From a virus: DNA of 22,796 nucleotides. The translations under genes were made by a program, and so were the position numbers. The DNA is taken from the IMG/VR virus record IMGVR_UViG_3300031974_000916, positions 1 to 22,796 of that record. The stretch is one strand, 5' to 3'. Of the stretch, positions 5,315 through 20,617 are shown piece after piece (positions within the stretch are counted from its first letter, which is position 1; each line of letters begins with the position of its first letter). The notes under the pieces were generated by a model. That model worked only from the letters and a program-made list of their open reading frames with translations, did not search any database and was not told where the DNA came from.

Positions 5315-5530
5315 TCAGCCTCCCAAAAGATGCCCGTGTGTGTCTCTTGGGTCTTCTTCGAGGTCGTGGTACACAAGGTAGTCTTCAATTTCCTGCTCGG
5401 TTTTAAGGACTGAAAGATTCTCAAGATGTTCTTTGATTCGTTCTTCTTCTTCGATGCGTTCTTTCTCTGATTCATAATAGTCTTGTTCGTAAGGTTCGGT
5501 TAACCAGTTGTCGTAGTTGTATCCTCTCAT
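5315..5530 (-). CDS. Unknown acidic coiled-coil early protein, 71 aa
   Basis: The chosen start is ATG 5530, which shares ATGA with the stop of the HNH endonuclease. A longer frame starting at GTG 5581 would overlap the HNH gene by 55 nt and is less likely. The protein is highly charged: residues 15-45 form a Glu/Lys/Arg-rich helix (YYESEKERIEEEERIKEHL) that looks like a coiled coil, followed by a second acidic helix (EQEIEDYLVYHDLEEDP). No enzyme motif is visible. It is followed 17 nt later by the next early gene. The family is unknown to me. Confidence 0.7.
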   Translation of the reverse strand: MRGYNYDNWLTEPYEQDYYESEKERIEEEERIKEHLENLSVLKTEQEIEDYLVYHDLEEDPRDTHGHLLGG

Positions 5531-6300
5531 AAGGTTATGGTTTTGTAGTTGTTCATTAAGATTGTCAACAAAACATACCACGGAATCTTATCACCCTTTG
5601 CACAATTATCTTTCTCCCATAACGGCTGAAGATTCTGCCAGTTAAAACATACCTTTTGATGACTCGGTTTGGTTAGGTCAAAGAATGCACACGGAAGAAT
5701 GTGATCGATATGCCACTTCCCATGATTATCCCAAGACATACCCTCAGTGAACTGAGCTTCAAGGTGATTACAACACTGTTCAATAGTACATCCTAATAGC
5801 TTGACTGTGGCTTCGCTTTTAAAACCAGGTCTGATTCTACGCATGTGATCTCTTAATCTTCTGCAAACCACTTTCTCAGGTATCGTGAGAGCCTTTTCGT
5901 ACACTTTTTTCCTAGCTGCTAAACCCTTCGGGCTGTTTTGGTACTTTTTTTGTGTTTTTTTATATTTTGAACTACGATGGTATCTAGCTGACGTTACCTT
6001 TCCTTTAAGGGATTGCTTGTATTTCTTTCGACTAGCTTTGTGAGCATCAGTATGTTTCGTCTTTTGATAATAATCAGATTTTTTTTTCTTAGCTTGATCG
6101 GATTGGAAGTATATATTTTTCTGTTCTGTAAAAGCTTTAAAACTATCTTCGTCAGCCCAATGCTCACCATCTGGATATAATTTTTTAAAAAACAAACCTT
6201 TAATAATAGGATGTTTATCTCCAGTTTTAAAAGTACCTCTAGGTTCTTCTGTTTGTACTTCTTTTTGTTTAATCCTTCCTCTTTTATCTCTCGGTATCAT
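5527..6300 (-). CDS. HNH endonuclease, probably free-standing homing type
   Basis: 257 aa. The C-terminal HNH (beta-beta-alpha-metal) domain is plain: WHIDHILPCAFFDL with H197 and H200, then FNWQNLQPLW and EKDNCAKGDKIPW supplying the conserved Asn residues. The middle (about residues 75-135) is a Lys/Arg/Tyr-rich string of repeated KYK-type segments, likely the DNA-binding arm. Such enzymes nick or cut specific DNA; in phages they are often selfish genes spread by homing, and some act in packaging. The location away from terminase favours homing. The gene looks richer in A/T than its neighbours (several T runs of 6-9 on the plus strand at 5940-6190), consistent with acquisition. It starts with ATG 6300, overlapping the preceding stop by one base, with GAGGAGGA just upstream. 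Confidence 0.9.
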   Translation of the reverse strand: MIPRDKRGRIKQKEVQTEEPRGTFKTGDKHPIIKGLFFKKLYPDGEHWADEDSFKAFTEQKNIYFQSDQAKKKKSDYYQKTKHTDAHKASRKKYKQSLKGKVTSARYHRSSKYKKTQKKYQNSPKGLAARKKVYEKALTIPEKVVCRRLRDHMRRIRPGFKSEATVKLLGCTIEQCCNHLEAQFTEGMSWDNHGKWHIDHILPCAFFDLTKPSHQKVCFNWQNLQPLWEKDNCAKGDKIPWYVLLTILMNNYKTITL

Positions 6301-6464
6301 TATTCCTCCTCCAGTTTCTCAAGGTGTTCTTTATAGAGTTGCAAGGACAGGTAAAGCTCAAGCCATCTTCCGTCCAACTCTCGGTTCATATCGTTGTTAA
6401 ATAGATGGAACATCAGCTCCTCTATCTGATCGATTGGATCAAGTAATATCTCTCGGTTAGTCAT
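6300..6464 (-). CDS. Unknown 54-aa early protein
   Basis: ATG 6464, MTNREILLDPIDQIEELMF, ending LEKLEEE. It is mostly helical and acidic by composition. The start lies inside the end of the upstream 23-aa gene (8-nt overlap), and the stop overlaps the next start as TAATG. The purine run that encodes the final Glu residues also serves as the Shine-Dalgarno sequence (GAGGAGGA) of the HNH gene. One copy of the repeated TACCTGTCC 9-mer lies inside it (6345-6353 on the plus strand), read as Y-L-S. No recognisable family. Confidence 0.7.
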   Translation of the reverse strand: MTNREILLDPIDQIEELMFHLFNNDMNRELDGRWLELYLSLQLYKEHLEKLEEE

Positions 6465-6528
6465 TGTATAAGATACATGTAAGGATAAGTCCGCAGATCA
6501 GCAGACAAAATAACATTGTTAAGGTCAT
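6457..6528 (-). CDS. Tiny single-pass membrane peptide, 23 aa
   Basis: ATG 6528 has the best Shine-Dalgarno sequence of the early region (GAAGGAG, 5 nt spacer). The peptide is MTLTMLFCLLICGLILTCIL plus three residues, essentially one hydrophobic helix with three Cys. An in-frame ATG at 6549 would add seven residues (MITEGEY) and would overlap the upstream stop as TAATG, but it has a poor ribosome site. The stop overlaps the following gene by 8 nt. Small hydrophobic early phage peptides can act on the host membrane or on membrane-bound defence proteins; which applies here is unknown. Confidence 0.6.
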   Translation of the reverse strand: MTLTMLFCLLICGLILTCILYND

Positions 6529-6548
6529 ATATTCTCCTTCGGTTATCA

Positions 6549-6752
6549 TTATTCTTGGACAGGTACAATTCTACCGCTTTGGTCAAAGTCATAACCTAGC
6601 TCGTCCATTATCCAAGCCATAGCAGTCTTTACATCGTCCACATCATGGCGTTTCTCTTCTGCATATGGTTCAAAGTGTTCTTCCCATTCGTGTATAACAT
6701 CCCATACAACTTCAAGGGATTCATCTACTCTAAAATTTGTCGGTTTATTCAT
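6549..6752 (-). CDS. Unknown acidic early protein, 67 aa
   Basis: ATG 6752, overlapping the upstream stop by one base (TAATG). The protein has about 19 Asp/Glu against 6 Lys/Arg, with helices around EVVWDVIHEWEEHFEPYAEE and DVKTAMAWIMDEL. The strong negative charge and early position are like those of small phage inhibitors of host enzymes, but no specific family is visible. Its last codons (VPVQE) carry one copy of the TACCTGTCC repeat, 8 nt before the stop. Confidence 0.72.
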   Translation of the reverse strand: MNKPTNFRVDESLEVVWDVIHEWEEHFEPYAEEKRHDVDDVKTAMAWIMDELGYDFDQSGRIVPVQE

Positions 6753-7009
6753 TATTCGGACAGGTAAGAGAATTGATAGTCAAAGGATAACCCGTTGCAA
6801 GAGTTTTCATTATACCAACGGATCAAAGTATTGATGTGCTTTATACCCCACATCTCTTCATCGTACTGGTCAACAAAAGGATCAACCTCTTTCAACCAGT
6901 CGTGTACTTTATCGATTAAACCCTCACAAGTATGACCTTTGAAAACCATTATGTCGGTTTCTCCGTCTCTGTGAAAGTCTAGTATAGTTATTTTGTTTTC
7001 TTCATTCAT
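6752..7009 (-). CDS. Unknown acidic early protein, 85 aa
   Basis: ATG 7009, with the upstream gene ending 8 nt inside it. The sequence has a beta-like start (NKITILDFHRDGETDIMVFKG), then an aromatic, acidic helical part (DWLKEVDPFVDQYDEEMWGI). A copy of the TACCTGTCC repeat lies 6 nt before the stop, read as Y-L-S. It sits in a run of similarly sized early genes joined by 1-8 nt overlaps. Function unknown. Confidence 0.72.
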   Translation of the reverse strand: MNEENKITILDFHRDGETDIMVFKGHTCEGLIDKVHDWLKEVDPFVDQYDEEMWGIKHINTLIRWYNENSCNGLSFDYQFSYLSE

Positions 7010-7172
7010 TAGTAGTATTGGTTCTATTTAGTAGCTCTTGCTGTAGCTCCACGAGCCTATCCCTAACAGTTAAGTTGTCAGGTAGCTTTTCACGGACACG
7101 TAAGTAGTGATCGATAAGCGTTTGCAAGCTCGGTTCATCAAGCGTGGATAAGTCGGATGGATCAGTTGTCAT
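7002..7172 (-). CDS. Unknown early protein, 56 aa
   Basis: The chosen start is ATG 7172 (MTTDPSDLSTLDEPSLQTL), overlapping the previous gene by 11 nt. A TTG at 7208 would add 12 residues and has AGGAAAG at a workable distance, so the start is uncertain. The protein is a probable helical hairpin (LQTLIDHYLRVREKL and VRDRLVELQQELLN), resembling small helical adaptor or inhibitor proteins. It ends NTTNE, and its last bases repeat the AATACTACTA element found at the starts of two other genes. No known family. Confidence 0.65.
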   Translation of the reverse strand: MTTDPSDLSTLDEPSLQTLIDHYLRVREKLPDNLTVRDRLVELQQELLNRTNTTNE

Positions 7173-7356
7173 TTCCTGTTGCGTTAATAAATGCTTCCCT
7201 AAGTTCAAGGATGTCTTTCCTCATGCTCTCAACAGTGTAGTCACCATTGGCTAAGTCCATAAAGGTTTCAACAATTCCAGAGTAAGACCAGTCAGGATCA
7301 CCCAACCACTCTATGATTTGTTCTTCGGTAAATTTAGTAGGTATAGTAGTATTCAT
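7162..7356 (-). CDS. Unknown early protein, 64 aa
   Basis: ATG 7356 overlaps the upstream stop by one base. The protein starts MNTTIPTKFTEEQIIEWLGD and looks like a small all-helical fold with a Trp-rich loop (GDPDWSYSGIVETFMDL). Composition is acidic. The 21 bases over its start (7342-7362) are identical to those at 146-166, over the start of the gene after primase-helicase; both proteins therefore begin MNTTI. No family recognised. Confidence 0.72.
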   Translation of the reverse strand: MNTTIPTKFTEEQIIEWLGDPDWSYSGIVETFMDLANGDYTVESMRKDILELREAFINATGNDN

Positions 7357-7362
7357 TATTTA
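7342..7362 (-). repeat. Start-codon repeat, copy 2
   Basis: Identical to the 21 bases at 146-166 and likewise placed over a start codon. Its AATACTACTA part occurs a third time at 7010-7019, just before the start of the 85-aa early gene. Confidence 0.7.
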
Positions 7363-7634
7363 TTAGTATTAGGTTCGGTTAAACAATCTGGACAGGTACT
7401 TTGACTCTCCATTTTAGGGTTTGTCAATCCGCAAGTGTCACAAGCAGGTAAAGATCGGTTCCGATAGTATTGTTTGAGTCTCTGTTTTATTTGCTCGTAC
7501 ATGTGCTCCATTGAATGAGCCTCGCCATGGACAGGTAAAGATTTACACTTCCAAACAATAACAGGTAAAGCTCGGTTAAAGCTATCGATACGATAAAAGA
7601 AAGCTAGGTTTTGATAGATAAATGATACGCTCAT
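7356..7634 (-). CDS. Small zinc-ribbon protein, about 92 aa
   Basis: The start ATG 7634 shares ATGA with the stop of the preceding membrane-protein gene; a TTG at 7667 is less likely. An internal ATG at about residue 43, with GAGG 8 nt upstream, could yield a 50-aa form. The C-terminus has a clear four-Cys zinc ribbon (CDTC at 65-68, CPDC at 81-84). The middle is a basic helix (EQIKQRLKQYYRNR). Together these suggest nucleic-acid or protein binding, for example a transcription or host-takeover factor. Three short (R/K)(S/A)LP segments in the same frame come from repeats of the TTTACCTG element. Function is inferred only from the ribbon. Confidence 0.65.
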   Translation of the reverse strand: MSVSFIYQNLAFFYRIDSFNRALPVIVWKCKSLPVHGEAHSMEHMYEQIKQRLKQYYRNRSLPACDTCGLTNPKMESQSTCPDCLTEPNTNK

Positions 7635-7777
7635 GACAGACAGATACTTGCCAGTATAGCCACCCAAAATGCCCCGACAATAAGCGGAACTATAACAGAT
7701 GATAACATCTCACAAGATTTGCTTGGTTTTAGCCAATTAGGATAACACAAGGATGAAGTGGTTTTGATTCTTTTCAT
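7631..7777 (-). CDS. Small membrane protein, 48 aa
   Basis: ATG 7777 lies 4 nt after the stop of the preceding gene. The protein has a basic, polar N-terminal half (MKRIKTTSSLCYPNWLKPSK) and one hydrophobic segment at about residues 25-47 (SSVIVPLIVGAFWVAILASI), so it is likely a single-pass inner-membrane protein with the N-terminus inside. The stop overlaps the next start as ATGA. No ribosome site stands out, so translation is probably coupled. A role in lysis or membrane takeover is possible but not shown. Confidence 0.62.
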   Translation of the reverse strand: MKRIKTTSSLCYPNWLKPSKSCEMLSSVIVPLIVGAFWVAILASICLS

Positions 7778-7781
7778 GGTA

Positions 7782-8132
7782 TTAGATTCTTTTGATGGTT
7801 CTAAGGATCAGGGAACAAGCTTGCTGTAAGGCTCGTGTTTGTACATCTAACCAAGTCGAATGCTTACTAGGTTGCCAATCACCGCCTCGTCTTGCTTTTA
7901 GTTCGGATGGAGTACAAAGAGCTTCTGCTATGTCGGCATCATAGATTAAGGCACAACCGCCATAGCTATAAGCTGACCAGTCAGAAGCACCATTTAAAAG
8001 CTTTTCTCTGGTGATGTTTAAGCAATCGTCTAAGCCGTCGATTAAATCAATAGCGTAGTTTTTAACACCCTTAGACCAAGCTGATCTGGCTTTGTGAGAT
8101 TCTAAGGCGGTGATGATAGTTTCTTTATTCAT
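7782..8132 (-). CDS. Conserved hypothetical early protein, 116 aa
   Basis: The chosen start is ATG 8132 (MNKETIITALESHKARSAW). A longer frame from TTG 8315 would run through the upstream gene and is rejected. The protein carries a signature I recall from hypothetical proteins in phages and mobile elements of other bacteria: RSAWSKGVKNYA, then SYGGCALIYDADIAE and LCTPSE, then WLDVQTRAL. I cannot name a tested function. The length fits a complete single domain, and the conserved Trp, Gly and Asp residues suggest a binding pocket. The early position implies a host-directed or regulatory role (inference). Confidence 0.78.
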   Translation of the reverse strand: MNKETIITALESHKARSAWSKGVKNYAIDLIDGLDDCLNITREKLLNGASDWSAYSYGGCALIYDADIAEALCTPSELKARRGGDWQPSKHSTWLDVQTRALQQACSLILRTIKRI

Positions 8133-8148
8133 TATTCTTTGGTGTTTA

Positions 8149-8409
8149 TTAGTTGAGTCCTGTGATTTTTCGGACGATCTCCCATGCTTTATCGCAAGGA
8201 TTATCAAAGTCAAGACCCCAATAAAGCCACTGATTATGAATCTTCCTGCGTTTGGCGTAGCTCGCATCTCTGAGATAATGTCTGAAATCATGATGCCAGA
8301 AGTAAGCAAGACCAATGTAATCAGGAGTCCTGACCAATTCCTTATCGAGTCTGAGAAGTTTTAAGTATGCCTCTGTTGAAAGAGCTTCTAAGTTAAGTAC
8401 ATCTGTCAT
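8149..8409 (-). CDS. First gene of the main early block, unknown, 86 aa
   Basis: ATG 8409, MTDVLNLEALSTEAYLKLLR. The C-terminal half is rich in aromatic and basic residues (YFWHHDFRHYLRD, KRRKIHNQWLYWGL). It is the first gene after about 530 nt of non-coding sequence that holds the best promoter candidates, including a T3/T7-like element ending about 40 nt upstream, so it should be among the first proteins made. There is no clear Shine-Dalgarno sequence. I recognise no family. T7 places its anti-restriction protein Ocr in this slot, but this protein is not acidic and no homology is claimed. Confidence 0.75.
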   Translation of the reverse strand: MTDVLNLEALSTEAYLKLLRLDKELVRTPDYIGLAYFWHHDFRHYLRDASYAKRRKIHNQWLYWGLDFDNPCDKAWEIVRKITGLN

Positions 8410-8427
8410 TTTGTATTTTGTTTCTAC

Positions 8428-8446
8428 ACTAGCGGAATTACTAGCG
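8428..8446. repeat. Direct repeat ACTAGCG x2, 12-nt period
   Basis: ACTAGCG occurs at 8428-8434 and 8440-8446 on the plus strand, separated by GAATT. It lies between the candidate phage promoter start and the first early ATG, so it could be an operator or an element of the mRNA leader. Confidence 0.5.
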
Positions 8447-8450
8447 ATAT

Positions 8451-8474
8451 TGTCCCTTTAGTCCTGATTTGATT
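8451..8474 (-). promoter_or_regulatory. Candidate phage RNA polymerase promoter
   Basis: On the minus strand the sequence reads AATCAAATCAGG directly followed by ACTAAAGGGACA. The core ACTAAAGGGA is identical to that of the T3 promoter (CACTAAAGGGAGA) and close to T7 (CACTATAGGGAGA); the predicted first transcribed G is at 8456, 47 nt upstream of the first early ATG. The upstream half does not match T3 or T7. I found no second near-exact copy in the other intergenic gaps of the window, which lowers confidence. Confidence 0.45.
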
Positions 8475-8528
8475 AAATATCGATAACAAAATGCAAACCT
8501 AAGTGAATTACCTATAATTCTAATAGTT

Positions 8529-8556
8529 GTTATAAGTTAGACTAATCATCAATCAA
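8529..8556 (-). promoter_or_regulatory. Candidate host sigma-70-type early promoter
   Basis: On the minus strand TTGATT (8556-8551) is followed after 16 nt by TATAAC (8534-8529). It would drive the early genes starting at 8409. The match is 4/6 and 5/6 to the E. coli consensus; the host is unknown. Confidence 0.4.
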
Positions 8557-8799
8557 GTGAGCTTTCAAGTTGTTCATTTGGTTCATTTATTTTTGAACTT
8601 AGAACATCGAAGAAGAAAAACAAATACACGAACAAACATCAACATATCATGATGAAGTGATGCGATAACATCAGGATTTGATGGAGCTATTGATGATCTG
8701 CTAATGCAAGTTAGTTGCAATAAGGAAAAAAAATAAGCAATAAAAGCTGATTTCTAGCCAATTTGTTTCATAAGTCGTTGATTACCAAGGCGAGTTCGG

Positions 8800-8828
8800 C
8801 TAATATGTATTATGTCTAATTATATCAA
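8800..8828 (-). promoter_or_regulatory. Candidate host sigma-70-type early promoter
   Basis: On the minus strand TTGATA (8828-8823) is followed after 17 nt by TATTAG (8805-8800), pointing to the early gene block. It lies directly downstream, in the direction of transcription, of the G/C-rich inverted repeat. The -10 match is moderate. Confidence 0.32.
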
Positions 8829-8869
8829 TACCCCCCGTCCTATAATAATCTTACGGGTATGCGGGGGTA
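8829..8869. other. G/C-rich inverted repeat in the terminus region
   Basis: TACCCCCCG (8829-8837) can pair with CGGGGGTA (8862-8869) with one bulged C. An alternative inner stem pairs CCCGT (8834-8838) with ACGGG (8853-8857). More G/C-rich sequence (CGCGGGCG) follows at 8875-8882. It stands out in an A/T-rich non-coding region. T7 has a comparable CCCCC/GGGGG inverted repeat close to its left end, so a role in terminus recognition or processing is plausible. No T run follows on the minus strand, so it does not look like a terminator. Confidence 0.6.
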
Positions 8870-8942
8870 ATTAACGCGGGCGTATATAGCGTAAGCCTCT
8901 CAGATTTTTTCGCCAAAACTTTTTAGGAGTCGTCTATATAAG

Positions 8943-9158
8943 TCAGAAGCTTGGGTCAAAGGTCTCGTCTGTATCGTCCTCTAATAGATCGTCTACTCCT
9001 TCAAAGATAACATCATCTGTTTCAGTTAACACCGACAGTTTAGCGAAGTCCAGGCATCCTGCTATGGTGTAATCGTTTAAGTCGTACTCTCGTTTGAATC
9101 GATACACGAGCTTTGCTAGTTCGTACTGGAAGGTGTCTGTTTGATCGTTAATGTTCAT
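8943..9158 (-). CDS. Acidic 71-aa protein encoded in the terminus region
   Basis: ATG 9158, MNINDQTDTFQYELAKLVYRF. The protein has 19 Asp/Glu and 5 Lys/Arg, with the acids concentrated in the C-terminal third (VDDLLEDDTDETFDP). The N-terminal part looks helical (YELAKLVYRFKREYDLNDY). It stands alone between two long non-coding stretches, downstream of terminase and upstream of the early genes. It may be the last late gene, or the first early gene in the slot where T7 keeps the DNA-mimic Ocr. The charge would suit a DNA mimic or a nucleic-acid-protein inhibitor, but there is no recognisable homology. No good Shine-Dalgarno sequence is visible. Confidence 0.65.
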   Translation of the reverse strand: MNINDQTDTFQYELAKLVYRFKREYDLNDYTIAGCLDFAKLSVLTETDDVIFEGVDDLLEDDTDETFDPSF

Positions 9159-9249
9159 CTGTAATAGTTATACTACTACATAACAGATATTGTTACTAGT
9201 CTTTTCGAGACCTTATGGTAGCATTTACAATGCGTTGCGTTCGCTATGC

Positions 9250-9276
9250 GAGACGCTCTTGAGACAGTATTGAGAC
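9250..9276. repeat. Triple GAGAC repeat with exact 11-nt period
   Basis: GAGAC occurs at 9250, 9261 and 9272 on the plus strand, each followed by six different bases; the last two units extend to TTGAGACA. Two further copies are at 9207 and 9342. The one-helical-turn spacing puts the copies on the same face of the DNA, as in protein-binding arrays. Confidence 0.6.
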
Positions 9277-9370
9277 ACCGATTCTTGACCAGTGTTTATC
9301 TAGGGTTTTAAATTTTATGCTTTACATGTTTCCTTCGGTGTGAGACCGTTATAATATTGATATTAAGATA

Positions 9371-9412
9371 GTACTTAAACTATACCTAAATATAATTATA
9401 GGTAAGAAGTAC
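9371..9412. other. Nested inverted repeat (two 6-bp arms)
   Basis: The outer arms are GTACTT (9371-9376) and AAGTAC (9407-9412); the inner arms are TACCTA (9383-9388) and TAGGTA (9399-9404) around an A/T loop. The 12-mer AATTATAGGTAA here (9394-9405) also occurs in inverse orientation at 8508-8519, so the two copies bracket the 71-aa gene. Confidence 0.5.
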
Positions 9413-9429
9413 AAGCAAGTGATTTAGAG

Positions 9430-9458
9430 AAGCATATAGCTGCTTACTGCTATAGCTT
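9430..9458. other. Hairpin with 10-bp stem and one bulge
   Basis: AAGC-A-TATAGC (9430-9440) pairs with GCTATAGCTT (9449-9458) across an 8-nt loop; the A at 9434 is unpaired. On the plus strand it is followed by a pyrimidine-rich run, but no plus-strand gene precedes it, so it is not called a terminator. Confidence 0.5.
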
Positions 9459-9520
9459 TCCTTTTAACAAAGATTACTTTATAGATTACTTCAGCTACCA
9501 CAGATTAGTTACAGCTGATG

Positions 9521-9551
9521 ATTTAGCTCATACTTCGTTCTTTCGCTAAAT
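9521..9551. other. Inverted repeat ATTTAGC/GCTAAAT
   Basis: Perfect 7-bp arms at 9521-9527 and 9545-9551 with a 17-nt loop, in non-coding sequence after terminase. Confidence 0.45.
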
Positions 9552-9698
9552 ACTTTAGACGGTTACTAATAACGATACTTTAACTTTACCTTTTAAGGAT
9601 AGGTGTGTCTATAAATAGACCTGTATTTAAACTAACTACAACAGCACCTTATATATCTACTAAAGAGATTTGTTATTAAAAAGTAGGAGCAGTAGCGA

Positions 9699-11690: not shown

Positions 11691-12707
11691 TTAGCTTAAA
11701 GCAGACTCAAACTCAGCAACGGTTCCTAATTCAGTTCCGTTGTGGTAGAGGTTAGCGTCTAAGTCAGCAAGAGCAGCGGAGCTGTCGTCACCGTAGATGT
11801 CGGTGGAAGCAGCTGTAGCGGAAGTAGTAACTACTTTGAATTTGTCAGCAGACTCATCCCAGAAGAACGCAGCGTTCGACTCTGTAGAACCACGCTCGAT
11901 AACAAATCCACCGTCATTCGATGCAGTAGAACCTGAAGCAGCACCCTTAGACAAGTTGATAAGACTATCACTAACATCTAAGTTTGTTGTAGAAACAGTG
12001 GTGGTAGTTCCGGATACAGTAAGATTTCCGCTAAGAGTTAAGTCAGCAGCAGAAAGGTTACCGGAGAAGGAAGCGGAGTTACCGTCAGAAGCGAGCGATC
12101 CAGTTGCAGTTTGCAGATTGCTGATGTCCGTGTCGTTGCTGGATACATTCGATTGCAGAGTGGAGATGTCCGAATCATTCGAAGAGACATTGCTTTGCAG
12201 AGTGCTAACATCAGATTCAAGAGAAGTAATGTCAGACTGAGCAGTAGAAACATTTGACTGGAGAGTCGAGATGTCACTGTCGTTGGAGCTAACATTAGAC
12301 TGAAGAGTGCTGATGTCAGAAGAGTTAGTCGAAACGCTGGACTGGAGGCTGGAGATGTCTGAATCGTTAGAAGATACAGCGTCAGCAACACTTTTAAGTT
12401 GTGTATCAAGAGCTTCGTCAGCAGCTTTAAGGCTGGCTACAGAACCGAGATAGTTGGTACCACTGTTAGCGGAATAAGAACCGTCAGTACCAAGACCCGC
12501 ACCAGTTTGAGTAGCATCTACTTCGGACTGAAGAGAAGTTACACTTGAAGATACTGAATCAACATAAGCTTTGGTAGCAGCGTGAAGGGAGGCAGTAGGA
12601 GCACCTGAGAGCGTCAAAGCTCCGGTCATTGTTCCTCCTGCGAGGGCAAGCTTCTTATCAAGCTCTACTTTGGTTTTTTGACCCAATTGGGTAAGCAAAC
12701 TAGACAT
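11691..12707 (-). CDS. Coiled-coil tail appendage or adhesin, 338 aa
   Basis: ATG 12707 with AGGA 9 nt upstream. The N-terminus MSSLLTQLGQK is shared with the 114-aa gene upstream and may be a common attachment sequence. A fibre-type unit follows (GGTMTGALTLSGAP, HAATKAYVDSV), then about 100 residues of 14-residue repeats of the type NVSSNDSDISTLQS, which have heptad spacing of Ile/Leu/Val and should form a trimeric or dimeric coiled coil. The C-terminal part (LTLSGNLTVSGTTTTV onward, FVIERG, FFWDESADKFKV) resembles structural repeats of virion proteins of large marine phages. It is probably part of the receptor-binding apparatus or a head decoration. A terminator follows. Confidence 0.8.
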   Translation of the reverse strand: MSSLLTQLGQKTKVELDKKLALAGGTMTGALTLSGAPTASLHAATKAYVDSVSSSVTSLQSEVDATQTGAGLGTDGSYSANSGTNYLGSVASLKAADEALDTQLKSVADAVSSNDSDISSLQSSVSTNSSDISTLQSNVSSNDSDISTLQSNVSTAQSDITSLESDVSTLQSNVSSNDSDISTLQSNVSSNDTDISNLQTATGSLASDGNSASFSGNLSAADLTLSGNLTVSGTTTTVSTTNLDVSDSLINLSKGAASGSTASNDGGFVIERGSTESNAAFFWDESADKFKVVTTSATAASTDIYGDDSSAALADLDANLYHNGTELGTVAEFESALS

Positions 12708-12771: not shown

Positions 12772-13116
12772 TCAAACAGGTTCAACAATAAGAATGTCTC
12801 CAACCTCTGTTGTTAAACTGTCTCCGTCTTCCGCAAGTATATGAGTAACAGTAGGTACTGCACCACCAAGCTCAATGATCTTCCAAGCTGTTCCGTCGTC
12901 AATCGCCAGACAAGGACCTCCGTTTCCGTCACCATCTGTTACATATATAACACGACCTGATGTACCTACGGTTGGTAAGGCAGACGATAGATACGATCCG
13001 AATTGTATAGATTGTGATACAGACAGATCACCACTTATCAACCCTCCTGACTTATCAAACTTATCACTAAGCTTGGCTTTAACCTTCTGTCCTAATTGTG
13101 TAAGTAAGCTACTCAT
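12772..13116 (-). CDS. Short tail-associated protein, 114 aa
   Basis: ATG 13116 with GAGGT close upstream. It begins MSSLLTQLGQKVKAKLSDKFD, matching the start of the 338-aa protein (MSSLLTQLGQKTKVELDKKLA), so the two N-termini come from a duplication. The rest has a beta-rich, virion-like segment (GRVIYVTDGDGNGGPCLAIDDGTAWKII), a pattern I know from phage tail and adhesin proteins. It probably uses the same docking site as the 338-aa protein. There are 64 nt between its stop and the 338-aa start. Confidence 0.75.
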   Translation of the reverse strand: MSSLLTQLGQKVKAKLSDKFDKSGGLISGDLSVSQSIQFGSYLSSALPTVGTSGRVIYVTDGDGNGGPCLAIDDGTAWKIIELGGAVPTVTHILAEDGDSLTTEVGDILIVEPV

Positions 13117-13592: not shown

Positions 13593-13835
13593 TCAGCACT
13601 TCCATCTACGCAACGCTAAAGCTTTTCTTGTAGGTCTACCTTTACTGTCTTTCATCGGTCCTTTGACTCCAGACATCCTCGCACAGAAGGAACGCTTTCT
13701 AGGACCGCCACCAGGTTGAGGAGCTTTAAGGTTGGAGCCAGTAGCACGATTGTACTTCCGTCTACCTTTAGCAGTGAGTCCTCCTTTACGGGACTTCTCA
13801 CCTCTACCGAGGGATAGTGAAACAGATTTAGCCAC
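13593..13835 (-). CDS. Small basic protein, DUF6321-like, 80 aa
   Basis: The start is GTG 13835; there is no other Met before residue 54 and the family-like sequence begins immediately. It has about 24 Lys/Arg and 2 acidic residues. The conserved-looking core is SLGRGEKSRKGGLTAKGRRKYN, then GSNLKAP, FCARMSGVKGPMKD and KGRPTRKALALRRW. I recall this as a domain of unknown function common in marine phage and environmental sequences (DUF6321, from memory). The charge and two Cys suggest nucleic-acid binding or internal packing, but no function is known to me. It overlaps the preceding gene by 8 nt. Confidence 0.82.
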   Translation of the reverse strand: MAKSVSLSLGRGEKSRKGGLTAKGRRKYNRATGSNLKAPQPGGGPRKRSFCARMSGVKGPMKDSKGRPTRKALALRRWKC

Positions 13836-16120: not shown

Positions 16121-19100
16121 CTATTGAGTTAGGAGTTCAAGCACATCTTCTCGTGAGACCCCTTGTTTATTATAACGCAGTGCTAATTCAGTGTTCCTAA
16201 TCTTTAAAGCAACATCAGGAAATTCTCTGAGCATATCACGCTGTGCTACTCTTTTATACTTATTTAGTACATTAGTTATCTGTTTTACTCTAGGGCTTTC
16301 AACTCCTAACTCTGCGTCAAATTTAGGTAGGTTCTGATACTTCGATGAATTAATTAATTTACTTAGAGTTTGTCTCAAGGTTCTTCCACCTATTCGAACA
16401 TCTTGTAATAATTCTAATCTACGGTCGTGAGCACTCTGACCTCTATCATTTTTATACTCAAGTAAGTCTACATTACCTCCAAGCATCTTGTGACTAGGCA
16501 TTCTGAAACCGTGCTGTAATTCTGCCATCTCTCTGAGTATAGGGTCTTCCTTAGCTTCAGAACTCATAATCGGATTGATGAAACCAAAAGTACCAAAATC
16601 AACAATCTTCTCTTCTCCTAGTATATTTCTTTTAGGATCAAGCAGTTCACGACCACCTGGTGTTTTTCTAAGCACAGCATCAGCAACGATTCTAACTTCT
16701 CGTATTGCTTGCTTGTCGTAATCTTGAGCTTGAGCAAACACATTAGGTATAACAGTACCAGCGTAGTTTCTAAGCACTCTATCACCGAAACGCTCAGGGT
16801 CTTGGAAAGCGTCTGCCCATAATTGAACACCAGCAAGATAAGACTTATTAGCTACATTTCGAGATAACGCAGTAGCCATAGCCATAAATGTCTGTTCTAT
16901 ACCTTCTTCGTTAGCCTCGTCATTTTCTTTCATCATTTCGCTGATGTCGGCTGTAGTACCTAACAATGTAGCGATTGGGTCTAACCTTTGGTAACTGTAG
17001 TATTTACCGTTATATAAAATACTGTATGGTCTCCACCCGGTTTCTTGAAGTATGTCACGCTGTCTAGTATCAGTAGGACCACCACCAGTAATAACAGGTT
17101 TCTCTCCATTATTATTATTAAATACCATATCAACGAATAAACCTAATGTAGTAAATGCTGTAGCTACTTTACCTCTTGTCGCAGCTTGAATAACAGGGTC
17201 TTCAGAATTAAAACCTTTTCTTAAAGACTCAGCTTCTGAGCGTAAGCCTGGTACATTCAGTATTTTATCAGTTCCTGGTATTTTAAAAGAAGCTGCTAAA
17301 GGTGATCTCTCAAAAGCAAAGCTTAACAGATTGGATGGAGTTCTAACAAATGGCATAACATATTTACCCATGGGCCATTGTTTAGTTAGGTTTTGTACTA
17401 CTTTACCTAATGTACCTTCTTCCAATTCTCTAGTGTGCGTAAAGTACTTTGCTTCATCTAAAGCGTAAGAAGCTAGTACTGAAGCGTCCTCATCAAAGTT
17501 TTGATCTACATAGTTTTTGATGTGGTCAGCCCTTTGTTTAGCAAACTGTACACCTACTAATCCTAAGTCATCAGCTTGTTTAGCTCCTTCTCGTATCAAA
17601 GCTTCTTGTGATAACACCTGCCCATTTGTCGTTACTACCTTTTTAAGCTTATCATTTACATACTTAGCTATGCCTTGAGAATCTTTAATCCCTAAGTTTA
17701 TAGCTTCCATACCAGCTTTTAATCTAGCTGCTCTTCTGAATGCTAACTGCTTAAATAGTTCATCACCTGTTAACAAACCCCTAGCTGGTAAATTGATAAC
17801 ACCACCTAAGACATCTATTGTTTTTTGGTTAAAGCTCTTTCCTTGTTCTAATCCTTTACCTAAATCAATAACATCACCGATAGCTTGGTTAGGTGCTTCT
17901 AGTGTTCTTGATCCTACATCTAGCACTTCTTTACCTGTAACTAATGTTTTGAATGCAGCAGATGTAGCCTCTTTAAACAAAGCGTAATCAGCCCACGAAG
18001 CGATAGCAGCTTTAGCTAACGGCATATTACCGCTTAATACACCGCCTACAGCCATCTCAATAGTACCTAGCATCTGAGTCAAAGCATTACCTAAAAAGTT
18101 GACTGCTTGTGTTCTAGGACCGCTGAGTAAAGAATTAATCCAAAACTCAGTAGTTACATCCATCATGCTTTTTCCTTGAATCTTCTTAGATAGTCCTAAG
18201 ATTTTCTGAATAGAAGCTTCAGCGTTCTCTGGATCGTACATCTCTTTGATAAGCTCTACAGCTTTCTTAGGAGACATACCACCTGATTGATTGTTTAAAA
18301 ATTCTTTAACAAGAGCTGTGTTCTGTAGTTCACTTCTTTCTAAACCTATCTTTCGATCCAAAGGTTTCTTCTGTCTACGCATTGCAAGATTCTTAGAATC
18401 CTCTGCACCCATCTGACGGTAGTAATCGTAGATTTCAACAAACTCACTTAACTGTTTTCTTAATTCAGCTTCTGATTGTAAACTTTCAGTTTCTTCAAAC
18501 TTCTTAACAGCTTCCATCAAGCGTTCGTTAGAACCTCTCAACAAGTCTTTGAATATCTCACTCTCTACCCGTATGCGTCTTCTATCTTGAATAGACTTTG
18601 CACCCAACTCAAACAACTGGTTTAAGTCGTCATCTAAGAAATCAGCAGGTGCTTCATCAAACTTTTTAAGTAACTCAGGGTTTTGTTTGTACTTCTCTGT
18701 AAGAATCTTATGAGCTGAATCTATATCACCAAGTACTTCTAATCTAGGTAGTGTAGGACTTTCTCCTTTTAACACAGCGTCCGTCCACTGCTGCCACTCT
18801 GGGTCTGTTTTTAACTTAGCCTTAAAGTCGGGCATCTCTGCTGTAGATTCAAAACCCTTAAGAGATGTTTTTCTTTGTACTTTTACATTACGCTGTTTAA
18901 GAAAGTCATTAAATATCTTCTGCCTTTGATCGATTCCTATCTTGGCTTTCAAAGACTCAAACATATCTTTAAACAATATAGCTACCTCTTGGACTAATCT
19001 TTTGAATGTACCGCTAGGAGCTAATTCAGCTTCGTCCATTTTCTTAAACCAAGCATCAGTCATTTCTTCAGCGAAGTATTCGTCTATATCTTTAAATCTA

Positions 19101-20617
19101 TAGTTTTTTGAATTAAAATCACCACGCTTACCTCTAAGAAACTTTTTAAGTTCATCAGGAATTTGTTTCATTTGTACAGTACCCGCATCAAAAGGACTGT
19201 CTAAATCTGCGACATCTATACCAAAGCTTTGTATGTATTTGTTACGCTCTCTATGAAACTCTTTTGTTAACTTAGTTAAATCTTCTTTAGGTAAATAACG
19301 ACTAAGACTATGCCACAACTCGTGCACCATAACTCTTTTGAGGTCTCCATCTTCTACGATAGATTGTCTTATCTTTAATAGATTACTTCCAAACTCAAAC
19401 TGACCACCAGCTGCTATCTTATTAGTAATCATAGGTTGAGCTACATCACTAAACAGACGCACACCCATAACCTTAATGAATTGTCTAATATCTCTTACAT
19501 CCTGTGCACTCGCTCCTTTTACAGGTTGCTCATTCATTAACCTACCAGTGATGTCTTCAGCACCTCTAGGTATAATATCTAACATCCCAGCATCTTCGTA
19601 AGTCTGGAATGGAGGAGGTCTAGTAGCTATAGCTTCCTCTAAGTCGTCAAAGGTTTCGTCTAGTTCTTCTATCCTTTCCTGTAGTTCAGGTTGTTCTTTA
19701 AAGGATTGTCTAGCTTTTTCAGCTTCTAAATTCTGTTTAACCTTTTCAATATTCTGACCAAAAAGTTCTACTCTTGATCTAAGTATATCTTCCATTAAGT
19801 CGCCAGGTTGTTCCTGCCCTTTCTCGACTTTCTGCATCCAGCTGTCTAAATCTTTTTGGGATTTTTCTAATGATTTTTCCCAAATGGCTGTGTATTTAGC
19901 GGCTTCTTCATCATCTCTAGGTTTTAGGAATATGCTGTCACCGTCGTCGAAATCAGGTACCTCAGCAATGTCTTCAAAAGCTTTACCACCTTCTAACGAA
20001 TCGGATGTAGCTTTATTAACTTCGTCTGGTCCTAACCCATCTATGTCTCTAGCTTTCTTACCAGCTTTCAATGCTCGTAAAGATTTCATAAACATAGAAA
20101 CAGTACCACCGATAGCACCCTCTAGGATCAAACCTTCAAGTACATTCTTCAGTCTTCCTTCTACTTCTGTTTCATCTGCATCGTGTGCTAGGAACTCTGT
20201 TACCGGATTCTGTAGTTCGGGAAATTGTTGTATGAGATTAGATAGTCTATCCTCTTGTCCTTTAAATGCAGCGAAGTCTGTAACAGCACCAGCAACAACA
20301 CCCCTAGTAACTGTACCTGCTTTAGCTAATGCACCTATCTTACCCGCAGCTCCGAAAATAGGGACGAATCCTGTAGCAAACTGTGATATACCTTCAACAA
20401 GAGAACCTGCTGTAGTTTTAGAAGTACCTAAGAAACGAGTATCCCAATCAGGAAGAACATCAAAAGCAACCATGTCTGCTAGGTTGTAAGCACCGTGCAA
20501 AGCACCCTCTACACCTCTGAATGGAGCTTGGACTACATCAAGAAATACACTTGGGTCTTCTTCCTGTGGTGCTACTTCTTCGGTAGGTAATACTTGTTCT
20601 TCTTCTAATTCGTCCAT
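16121..20617 (-). CDS. Very large internal virion protein with HExxH motif (gp16-like)
   Basis: 1498 aa; T7 gp16 is 1318. Position between a gp15-like gene and the fibre, size and hydrophobic segments (about residues 75-115 and 160-185, and in the C-terminal half) identify it as the DNA-ejection protein that crosses the host envelope. The N-terminus (FRGVEGALHGAYNLADMVAF, SNLIQQFPELQNPVTEFLA) and the segments WINSLLSGPRTQAVNFLGN and MPFVRTPSNLLSFAFERSP are ones I recall from internal proteins of marine podoviruses. I see no lytic transglycosylase motif like the one at the start of T7 gp16. Instead, residues 432-436 read HELWH, with DEYFAEE ending at 518, a layout seen in zinc metallopeptidases with a Glu third ligand. 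Protease activity is inference. Confidence 0.9.
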   Translation of the reverse strand: MDELEEEQVLPTEEVAPQEEDPSVFLDVVQAPFRGVEGALHGAYNLADMVAFDVLPDWDTRFLGTSKTTAGSLVEGISQFATGFVPIFGAAGKIGALAKAGTVTRGVVAGAVTDFAAFKGQEDRLSNLIQQFPELQNPVTEFLAHDADETEVEGRLKNVLEGLILEGAIGGTVSMFMKSLRALKAGKKARDIDGLGPDEVNKATSDSLEGGKAFEDIAEVPDFDDGDSIFLKPRDDEEAAKYTAIWEKSLEKSQKDLDSWMQKVEKGQEQPGDLMEDILRSRVELFGQNIEKVKQNLEAEKARQSFKEQPELQERIEELDETFDDLEEAIATRPPPFQTYEDAGMLDIIPRGAEDITGRLMNEQPVKGASAQDVRDIRQFIKVMGVRLFSDVAQPMITNKIAAGGQFEFGSNLLKIRQSIVEDGDLKRVMVHELWHSLSRYLPKEDLTKLTKEFHRERNKYIQSFGIDVADLDSPFDAGTVQMKQIPDELKKFLRGKRGDFNSKNYRFKDIDEYFAEEMTDAWFKKMDEAELAPSGTFKRLVQEVAILFKDMFESLKAKIGIDQRQKIFNDFLKQRNVKVQRKTSLKGFESTAEMPDFKAKLKTDPEWQQWTDAVLKGESPTLPRLEVLGDIDSAHKILTEKYKQNPELLKKFDEAPADFLDDDLNQLFELGAKSIQDRRRIRVESEIFKDLLRGSNERLMEAVKKFEETESLQSEAELRKQLSEFVEIYDYYRQMGAEDSKNLAMRRQKKPLDRKIGLERSELQNTALVKEFLNNQSGGMSPKKAVELIKEMYDPENAEASIQKILGLSKKIQGKSMMDVTTEFWINSLLSGPRTQAVNFLGNALTQMLGTIEMAVGGVLSGNMPLAKAAIASWADYALFKEATSAAFKTLVTGKEVLDVGSRTLEAPNQAIGDVIDLGKGLEQGKSFNQKTIDVLGGVINLPARGLLTGDELFKQLAFRRAARLKAGMEAINLGIKDSQGIAKYVNDKLKKVVTTNGQVLSQEALIREGAKQADDLGLVGVQFAKQRADHIKNYVDQNFDEDASVLASYALDEAKYFTHTRELEEGTLGKVVQNLTKQWPMGKYVMPFVRTPSNLLSFAFERSPLAASFKIPGTDKILNVPGLRSEAESLRKGFNSEDPVIQAATRGKVATAFTTLGLFVDMVFNNNNGEKPVITGGGPTDTRQRDILQETGWRPYSILYNGKYYSYQRLDPIATLLGTTADISEMMKENDEANEEGIEQTFMAMATALSRNVANKSYLAGVQLWADAFQDPERFGDRVLRNYAGTVIPNVFAQAQDYDKQAIREVRIVADAVLRKTPGGRELLDPKRNILGEEKIVDFGTFGFINPIMSSEAKEDPILREMAELQHGFRMPSHKMLGGNVDLLEYKNDRGQSAHDRRLELLQDVRIGGRTLRQTLSKLINSSKYQNLPKFDAELGVESPRVKQITNVLNKYKRVAQRDMLREFPDVALKIRNTELALRYNKQGVSREDVLELLTQ

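Follow-up and report, generated by a model that had tools for sequence, protein, structure and literature searches.

A putative gluzincin-type metallopeptidase carried as an exchangeable cassette in the gp16-like internal virion protein of a T7-like phage

Introduction

T7-like phages are common marine viruses whose gp16 is one of the earliest phage proteins to enter the host. What an enzyme carried by such a protein might do at the onset of infection is the question raised by a 22,796-nucleotide stretch of viral DNA (IMG/VR record IMGVR_UViG_3300031974_000916, positions 1 to 22,796; hereafter, the window). A single minus-strand open reading frame (ORF) at 16121-20617 of this source phage encodes a gp16-like internal virion (ejection) protein of 1498 residues, the middle of which holds an HExxH motif. 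Is this motif a genuine catalytic site, and, if so, what would it cut? We propose, with a probability of about 0.6, that it belongs to a gluzincin-type cassette that occupies a slot in gp16 and is delivered to the host to cut protein. All the features of the protein given below lie on the minus strand.

Results

A preliminary description of this DNA had placed HELWH at residues 432-436 (19310..19324) and a DEYFAEE segment ending at residue 518 (residues 512-518; 19064..19084), and both are exactly there. HELWH is the sole HExxH in the 1498 residues, for which 0.007 would be expected from composition. A domain-alignment scan of 2.9 million viral contigs yielded 80 loci with 67 unique domain sequences, reaching down to 35-40% identity. 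H432, E433, L434, W435, H436, D512, and E513 are invariant in 67/67 of these domains; although the scan patterns were built on either HELW or DEYFAEE and thus selected in part for each motif, loci without one of the patterns still retain the catalytic residues of that motif. The peptidase module is under strong purifying selection, with ratios of nonsynonymous to synonymous substitution rates (dN/dS, NG86) of 0.06-0.08 against its two closest copies, L001 and L008. The HELWH domain also occurs, at ~33-40% identity, in giant proteins of 2122-2266 residues (L019, L090, and L091) that have no BLAST match to the C-terminal block of gp16 described below.

In other gp16s that share the N- and C-terminal blocks, different HExxH domains are found at this place. 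We distinguish type 1 (HELWH, as in the window), type 2 (mostly HE[ILM]LH; alignment A4), and type 3 (HE[SGA]TH; alignment A5). In the combined alignment of the three types (A6, 44 sequences), the only invariant positions are H432, E433, H436, Y506, E513, and G561. Types 1 and 2 align with a P of 1.8e-6 (hhalign), HELWH falling on HEILH and DIDEYF on DLDEFL, and the profile comparison of types 2 and 3 gives a P of 1.2e-14, versus 0.56 for the negative control. One gp16 of 1807 residues (L004:2900-8320) holds two HExxH domains in tandem, HESTH and HEILH.

These comparisons revise one detail of the preliminary description, which had read a gluzincin-like site of two His plus Glu and had pointed to E517 or E518 as the latter. 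The part concerning H432, E433, H436, and a downstream Glu stands, the first three being invariant among homologues, but the choice of Glu does not. E517 is constant within the HELWH family, E518 varies there, and both are replaced in types 2 and 3, so that we rejected them as zinc ligands. Since E513 (19079..19081) is instead invariant across all three types, it is most likely the third ligand; an equivalent Glu is found in ten cultured-phage relatives (see below). Assignment to the gluzincins, in which a Glu on a second helix is the third ligand, is thus based on the conservation of E513 and not on geometry. Y506 (19100..19102), also invariant over the three types, lies seven residues before it. 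A metzincin site was rejected, since HELWHSLSRYL lacks the third His of HExxHxxGxxH. We infer that residues ~371-575 form a gluzincin-type zinc metallopeptidase, in which H432, H436, and E513 would bind Zn2+ and E433 would act as the general base that activates water.

The AlphaFold2 model calculated from A6 (mean predicted local distance difference test score, 68; predicted template modelling score, 0.64) places a zincin core at residues 371-529 (19031..19507). It consists of a helix (371-388), three strands (393-398, 405-408, and 413-417), the HExxH helix (426-441), a further helix (444-463), and the Glu helix (511-529), near the start of which lies DEYFAEE. This order of elements is that of the core described for polyvalent metallopeptidases, namely, an N-terminal helix, three strands, the HExxH helix, and the Glu helix (PMC5512222). 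The proximity of the His and Glu residues anticipated in the preliminary description is supported in terms of the order of elements rather than of distances, HELWH and E513 being predicted in separate core helices that both lie behind the sheet of three strands. We regard this model as supporting evidence rather than proof of a zincin fold.

The sister domains connect the family to metallopeptidases of other phages. When the window domain itself was used, tblastn against cultured phages gave no real match and a scan of bacterial and archaeal genomes found nothing; the HELWH alignment, searched against PDB sequences, returned chance matches only. The type 2 profile matches a 1337-residue internal virion protein (PDB 9sfn_G) at 2e-7 and PhiM1 gp48 (PDB 8vb2) at 0.015, the stretch matched in the latter holding HEAAH and a downstream HEF. 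phiKMV gp37 (L162, locus 5567-9580), a protein of 1337 residues with HEAVH at 423 (His 423 and 427) and a downstream Glu in a KELV helix, contains the stretch matched in 9sfn_G, and its record is labelled "with endolysin domain". A search with the gp37 domain retrieved 144 cultured-phage records, with E-values of ~1e-8 for virion RNA polymerases (vRNAPs) and 6e-7 for a DarB-like protein. A related domain is also present in vB_PpuP-Kompost-1, which infects P. putida KT2440. We aligned ten cultured-phage proteins (A8), those of phiKMV, phiNV3, LIMElight, F5, Alcala, YMC_BP, and MKPT02, the CB4 and Littlefix vRNAPs, and the Parlo DarB-like protein. Although mostly ~20% identical to one another, they have HExxH and a downstream Glu in 10/10 cases, with H, E, H, N, E, and L invariant. 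The A8 profile matches type 2 at 2.4e-21 and the combined A6 at 2.6e-12; its match to the window type alone is weak (P of 3.4e-4), the catalytic parts of the two being aligned with each other. Type 2 also matches the vRNAP family PHROG 2206 (7.7e-11) at profile positions 2046-2246, and Iyer et al. 2017 placed the N4 metallopeptidase at 2130-2448 (PMC5512222). On the strength of these profile comparisons, the family joins, via its sister domains, the metallopeptidases of phiKMV gp37, N4-type vRNAPs, and DarB-like polyvalent proteins; the window domain would represent a divergent branch of these phage polyvalent/ejection metallopeptidases.

This relationship bears on how phiKMV-like proteins are annotated. 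In PhiM1, the domain at 268-528 was termed endolysin/exotransglycosidase-like (PMC11440229). Since the domain has HExxH and a conserved downstream Glu and matches vRNAP and DarB-like metallopeptidases, the "endolysin/exotransglycosylase" label of the phiKMV-like internal virion protein domain is probably wrong.

The peptidase domain is an exchangeable cassette between a conserved N-terminal block and a conserved C-terminal hub. The N block (residues 1 to ~212; 19982..20617) shows 86-90% DNA identity to L003 and L004, a similarity that breaks at gene nucleotides ~633-656, and contains two hydrophobic stretches according to its hydropathy (residues 70-112 and 158-180). The C block, or gp16 hub (residues 600-1498; 16124..18820), recognized from the identity of relatives and from PHROG 6651, is 62-96% identical among closer relatives, whether the peptidase is present or not. 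Between them lies the module with the peptidase domain (residues 301-599; 18821..19717). Comparison of the gene with L008 at the DNA level aligns only this region (gene nucleotides 901-1796, 94.3% identity) and the last 42 nucleotides. The protein and its L008 counterpart share 40% identity over the N block, 96% over the domain, and 32% over the C block; followed in residue windows, identity jumps from ~0.35 to ~0.95 and then returns. The converse pattern is observed between L040 and L015, which are 97% and 100% identical in the N and C blocks and 59% identical in the domain. Across 46 proteins, pairwise identities correlate at 0.86 between the N and C blocks, 0.49 between the N block and the domain, and 0.38 between the domain and the C block, with partial ORFs (e.g., L027 and L050) distorting single C values.

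The content of this region varies among phages. When gp16s were collected via the C block alone, the 35 full-length non-redundant proteins comprised 20 with HELWH, 8 with type 2 or 3, and 7 with no peptidase, the last being uninterrupted ORFs. The peptidase-free L097, for instance, is 68% identical to window residues 599-1498 and possesses the N block, ~350 residues being absent in between. L036 and L072 combine HELWH with an ADP-ribosyltransferase (ART) domain, ART-PolyVal (PF18760, above the Pfam cutoff), and L068 has the helix-turn-helix (HTH) domain HTH_40 in addition to HELWH; among variable segments, ART-PolyVal and HTH_40 are each found in 5/49. Fusion with unrelated effector domains is thus present in these three relatives, and none was seen in the window protein. 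Reading by eye, we also noted ART-like stretches (FHGTPH..., YHRTNQ...) at the site of the window's peptidase in L005:1-1000, L006:1-1000, and L123:4700-5200, for which there was no profile match.

Both family sequence match and gene position place the carrier protein in the T7 gp16-like class. It matches the internal virion protein family PHROG 6651 (E of 4.7e-53, PHROG scan), and its C-terminal half matches pelagiphage and roseophage internal virion protein D at 22-30%. The ORF is preceded by a gp15-position ORF and followed by a T7-type tail fibre gene (PF03906), and a T7_gp14 gene (PF24072) lies upstream of gp16 in the related contig L028. The RNA polymerase of the window phage is of the T7 type, its best match (29%) being to a pelagiphage. 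That T7 gp16 has a transglycosylase instead, as remarked in the preliminary description, agrees with the literature (PMC8954989), and Pfam scans found no transglycosylase or lysozyme profile in gp14, gp15, or gp16 of the window lineage.

Other genes of the window deserve mention. A basic, 80-residue DUF6321 protein (PF19846, E of 9.5e-26) is encoded at 13593-13835, adjoining the tail genes. The neighbouring proteins at 11691-12707 and 12772-13116 share a near-identical start, MSSLLTQLGQK(T/V)K, and the longer of the two contains repeated NVSSNDSDISTLQS units. Upstream of the RNA polymerase gene, a 257-residue ORF (5527-6300) without a Pfam match has an HNH-like stretch, WHIDHILPCAFFDL...NWQNLQPL.

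Discussion

We consider it very likely that the middle of this gp16-like protein adopts a zincin fold in which the HExxH...E513 site is genuine, and likely that the domain is a catalytically active protease. Several results weigh against the cassette that we propose. Pfam, NCBIfam, and PHROG searches assigned the protein to no peptidase family, none of the Pfam or NCBIfam peptidase models matching the domain, and a search at an E of 10 for PF18818 (MPTase-PolyVal) came back empty for the window as well as for six related records. Types 1 and 3 gave no direct profile alignment. A first AlphaFold2 model, based on the HELWH family alone (A2), was essentially all-helical, with helices replacing the sheet, and had no PDB fold match, and Foldseek on the A6 model returned no significant E-value in the PDB or the viral library. 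Lastly, the suggestion of a host target is drawn solely from the exchange pattern. We attribute the first model to too shallow an alignment, because the sheet appears once the sister domains are added. The nonsignificant Foldseek lists contain many zincins, several of which rank fairly high in each library; they are, from the PDB (projannalysin, selecase, SprT-type, LTA4 hydrolase, PPEP-2, and BlaR1) and, from the viral library, a zincin-fused crAss RNA polymerase, a PolyVal metallopeptidase, internal protein D, and a SprT-like protein.

The missing curated family and the all-helical first model would suit a chance HExxH in a helical protein, an explanation that we regard as refuted by the expectation of 0.007, the invariance across 67 domains, and the profile links. 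Similarly, the observation that the domain can be missing from gp16 might indicate a structural remnant, i.e., a catalytically dead zincin fold that serves, within the core stack, to fill space or to contact DNA. This is highly improbable given that the catalytic residues are invariant in the 67 domains and the ten cultured relatives and that purifying selection is strong.

How would an active peptidase be used? In T7, gp16 exits the capsid before the DNA, with the N part ending up periplasmic and the C part cytoplasmic (PMC8954989). If the window protein is likewise ejected ahead of the DNA, the domain would arrive in the envelope or the cytoplasm of the host just as infection begins, either compartment being possible because the module sits between the periplasmic N part and the cytoplasmic C part. 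There, it may cut a host protein with a role in defence or in takeover of the cell, or else cut gp16 itself and so release the cassette. In related phages, the slot holds another type of peptidase, is extended by an ADP-ribosyltransferase or HTH domain, or is free of any peptidase. Because module-free gp16s exist and other enzymes occupy the same region, the module is dispensable for core injection, and we favor an accessory activity that acts on the host or a release of the cassette by its own cleavage. The same two options were put forward for polyvalent metallopeptidases generally by Iyer et al. 2017 (PMC5512222). We give roughly even odds to a host-directed accessory function being the main role.

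Self-processing, in which the domain would cleave gp16 or the proteins that form the ejectosome with it, either prior to packaging or once ejected, and free the cassette or the hub, is consistent with the variable-length linker located N-terminal to the domain in many homologues. However, L097, L104, L106, and L107 are intact, lack the peptidase, and retain the N and C blocks, which implies that processing is unneeded for the core job, and N4 vRNAP is packaged unprocessed (PMC5512222); we hence consider self-processing unlikely as the main role. A function on peptidoglycan or elsewhere is, taken together, also unlikely. In particular, the domain might act as an endopeptidase that cuts peptide cross-links at entry, substituting for the transglycosylase at the N terminus of T7 gp16 (PMC8954989), since gp14, gp15, and gp16 of the window lineage have no transglycosylase or lysozyme profile and the phiKMV-like homologues are annotated as endolysin or exotransglycosylase domains (PMC11440229). 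Yet the window domain has no Pfam match to peptidoglycan endopeptidases (M15 and M23), its relatives are N4 vRNAP and DarB-like proteins rather than wall hydrolases, other relatives are without the domain or harbor ART and HTH domains in this part of the protein, and PhiM1 gp49 holds a separate lysozyme-like domain (PMC11440229). Moreover, the exchangeability of the module disfavors both virion processing and peptidoglycan cutting as its main role. Wall hydrolysis is therefore the weaker reading compared with a host-accessory activity or self-release, and we find it quite doubtful.

The host-directed cassette leads us to a broader, tentative suggestion, to which we give slightly less than even odds: in marine T7-like phages, the central part of gp16 may be a "warhead slot", a recombination hot spot that swaps whole enzymes acting at DNA entry. 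It would accommodate metallopeptidases of three types, ART, and DNA-binding or further domains, or else be free of any peptidase, and the enzymes would act on the host before phage gene expression. If the enzymes are indeed exchangeable, T7-like phages would have a pre-expression effector system like that proposed for N4, P1, and plasmids, extending effector delivery to the simplest and best-studied injection machine. Such a system would also account in part for the hypervariability of internal virion proteins reported from marine phage populations (PMC3909814, PMC10504331). If the slot is real, the phiKMV-like "endolysin/exotransglycosylase" domain would be the same kind of peptidase and not a wall hydrolase, a likely functional mislabel affecting many deposited phiKMV-like records.

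Zincin domains are known in polyvalent phage proteins, such as N4 vRNAP, P1 DdrB, and others (PMC5512222). The main text of that study makes no mention of gp16, internal virion, or T7-like, and we found no report of this arrangement in the open-access literature that links polyvalent proteins or peptidases to internal virion proteins or pelagiphages. What appears to be new here is a T7-like gp16 as the carrier of a known kind of domain, with a clear swap site. The zincin-like metallopeptidases of polyvalent proteins have two C-terminal helices, an HExxH helix followed by a Glu helix, after a three-stranded sheet (PMC5512222), the order predicted for the window domain by the A6 model. They too reside in large multidomain phage proteins, and their ART-PolyVal partner is found in some gp16s. 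They differ in that PF18818 fails on the window domain and in that the window type has its own conserved LSRYLP block after HELWH. phiKMV gp37 and PhiM1 gp48 are, as in the window, gp16-position ejection proteins with HExxH...E[LF] in the same region, but the domain of these proteins is annotated as endolysin/exotransglycosylase, and the direct match to the window type is weak. The C1 domain of N4-type vRNAPs combines HExxH and a downstream Glu in an ejected virion protein, as proposed here, whereas the protein is an RNA polymerase fusion of Schitoviridae and not a gp16 homologue. Finally, T7 shares the gene order of the window (gp14-like, gp15-position, gp16-like, and tail fibre), and the C-terminal hub of the window gp16 resembles pelagiphage internal virion protein D. 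While T7 gp16 bears an N-terminal lytic transglycosylase (PMC8954989), which is not universal in gp16-like proteins, the window protein would carry an internal peptidase module instead.

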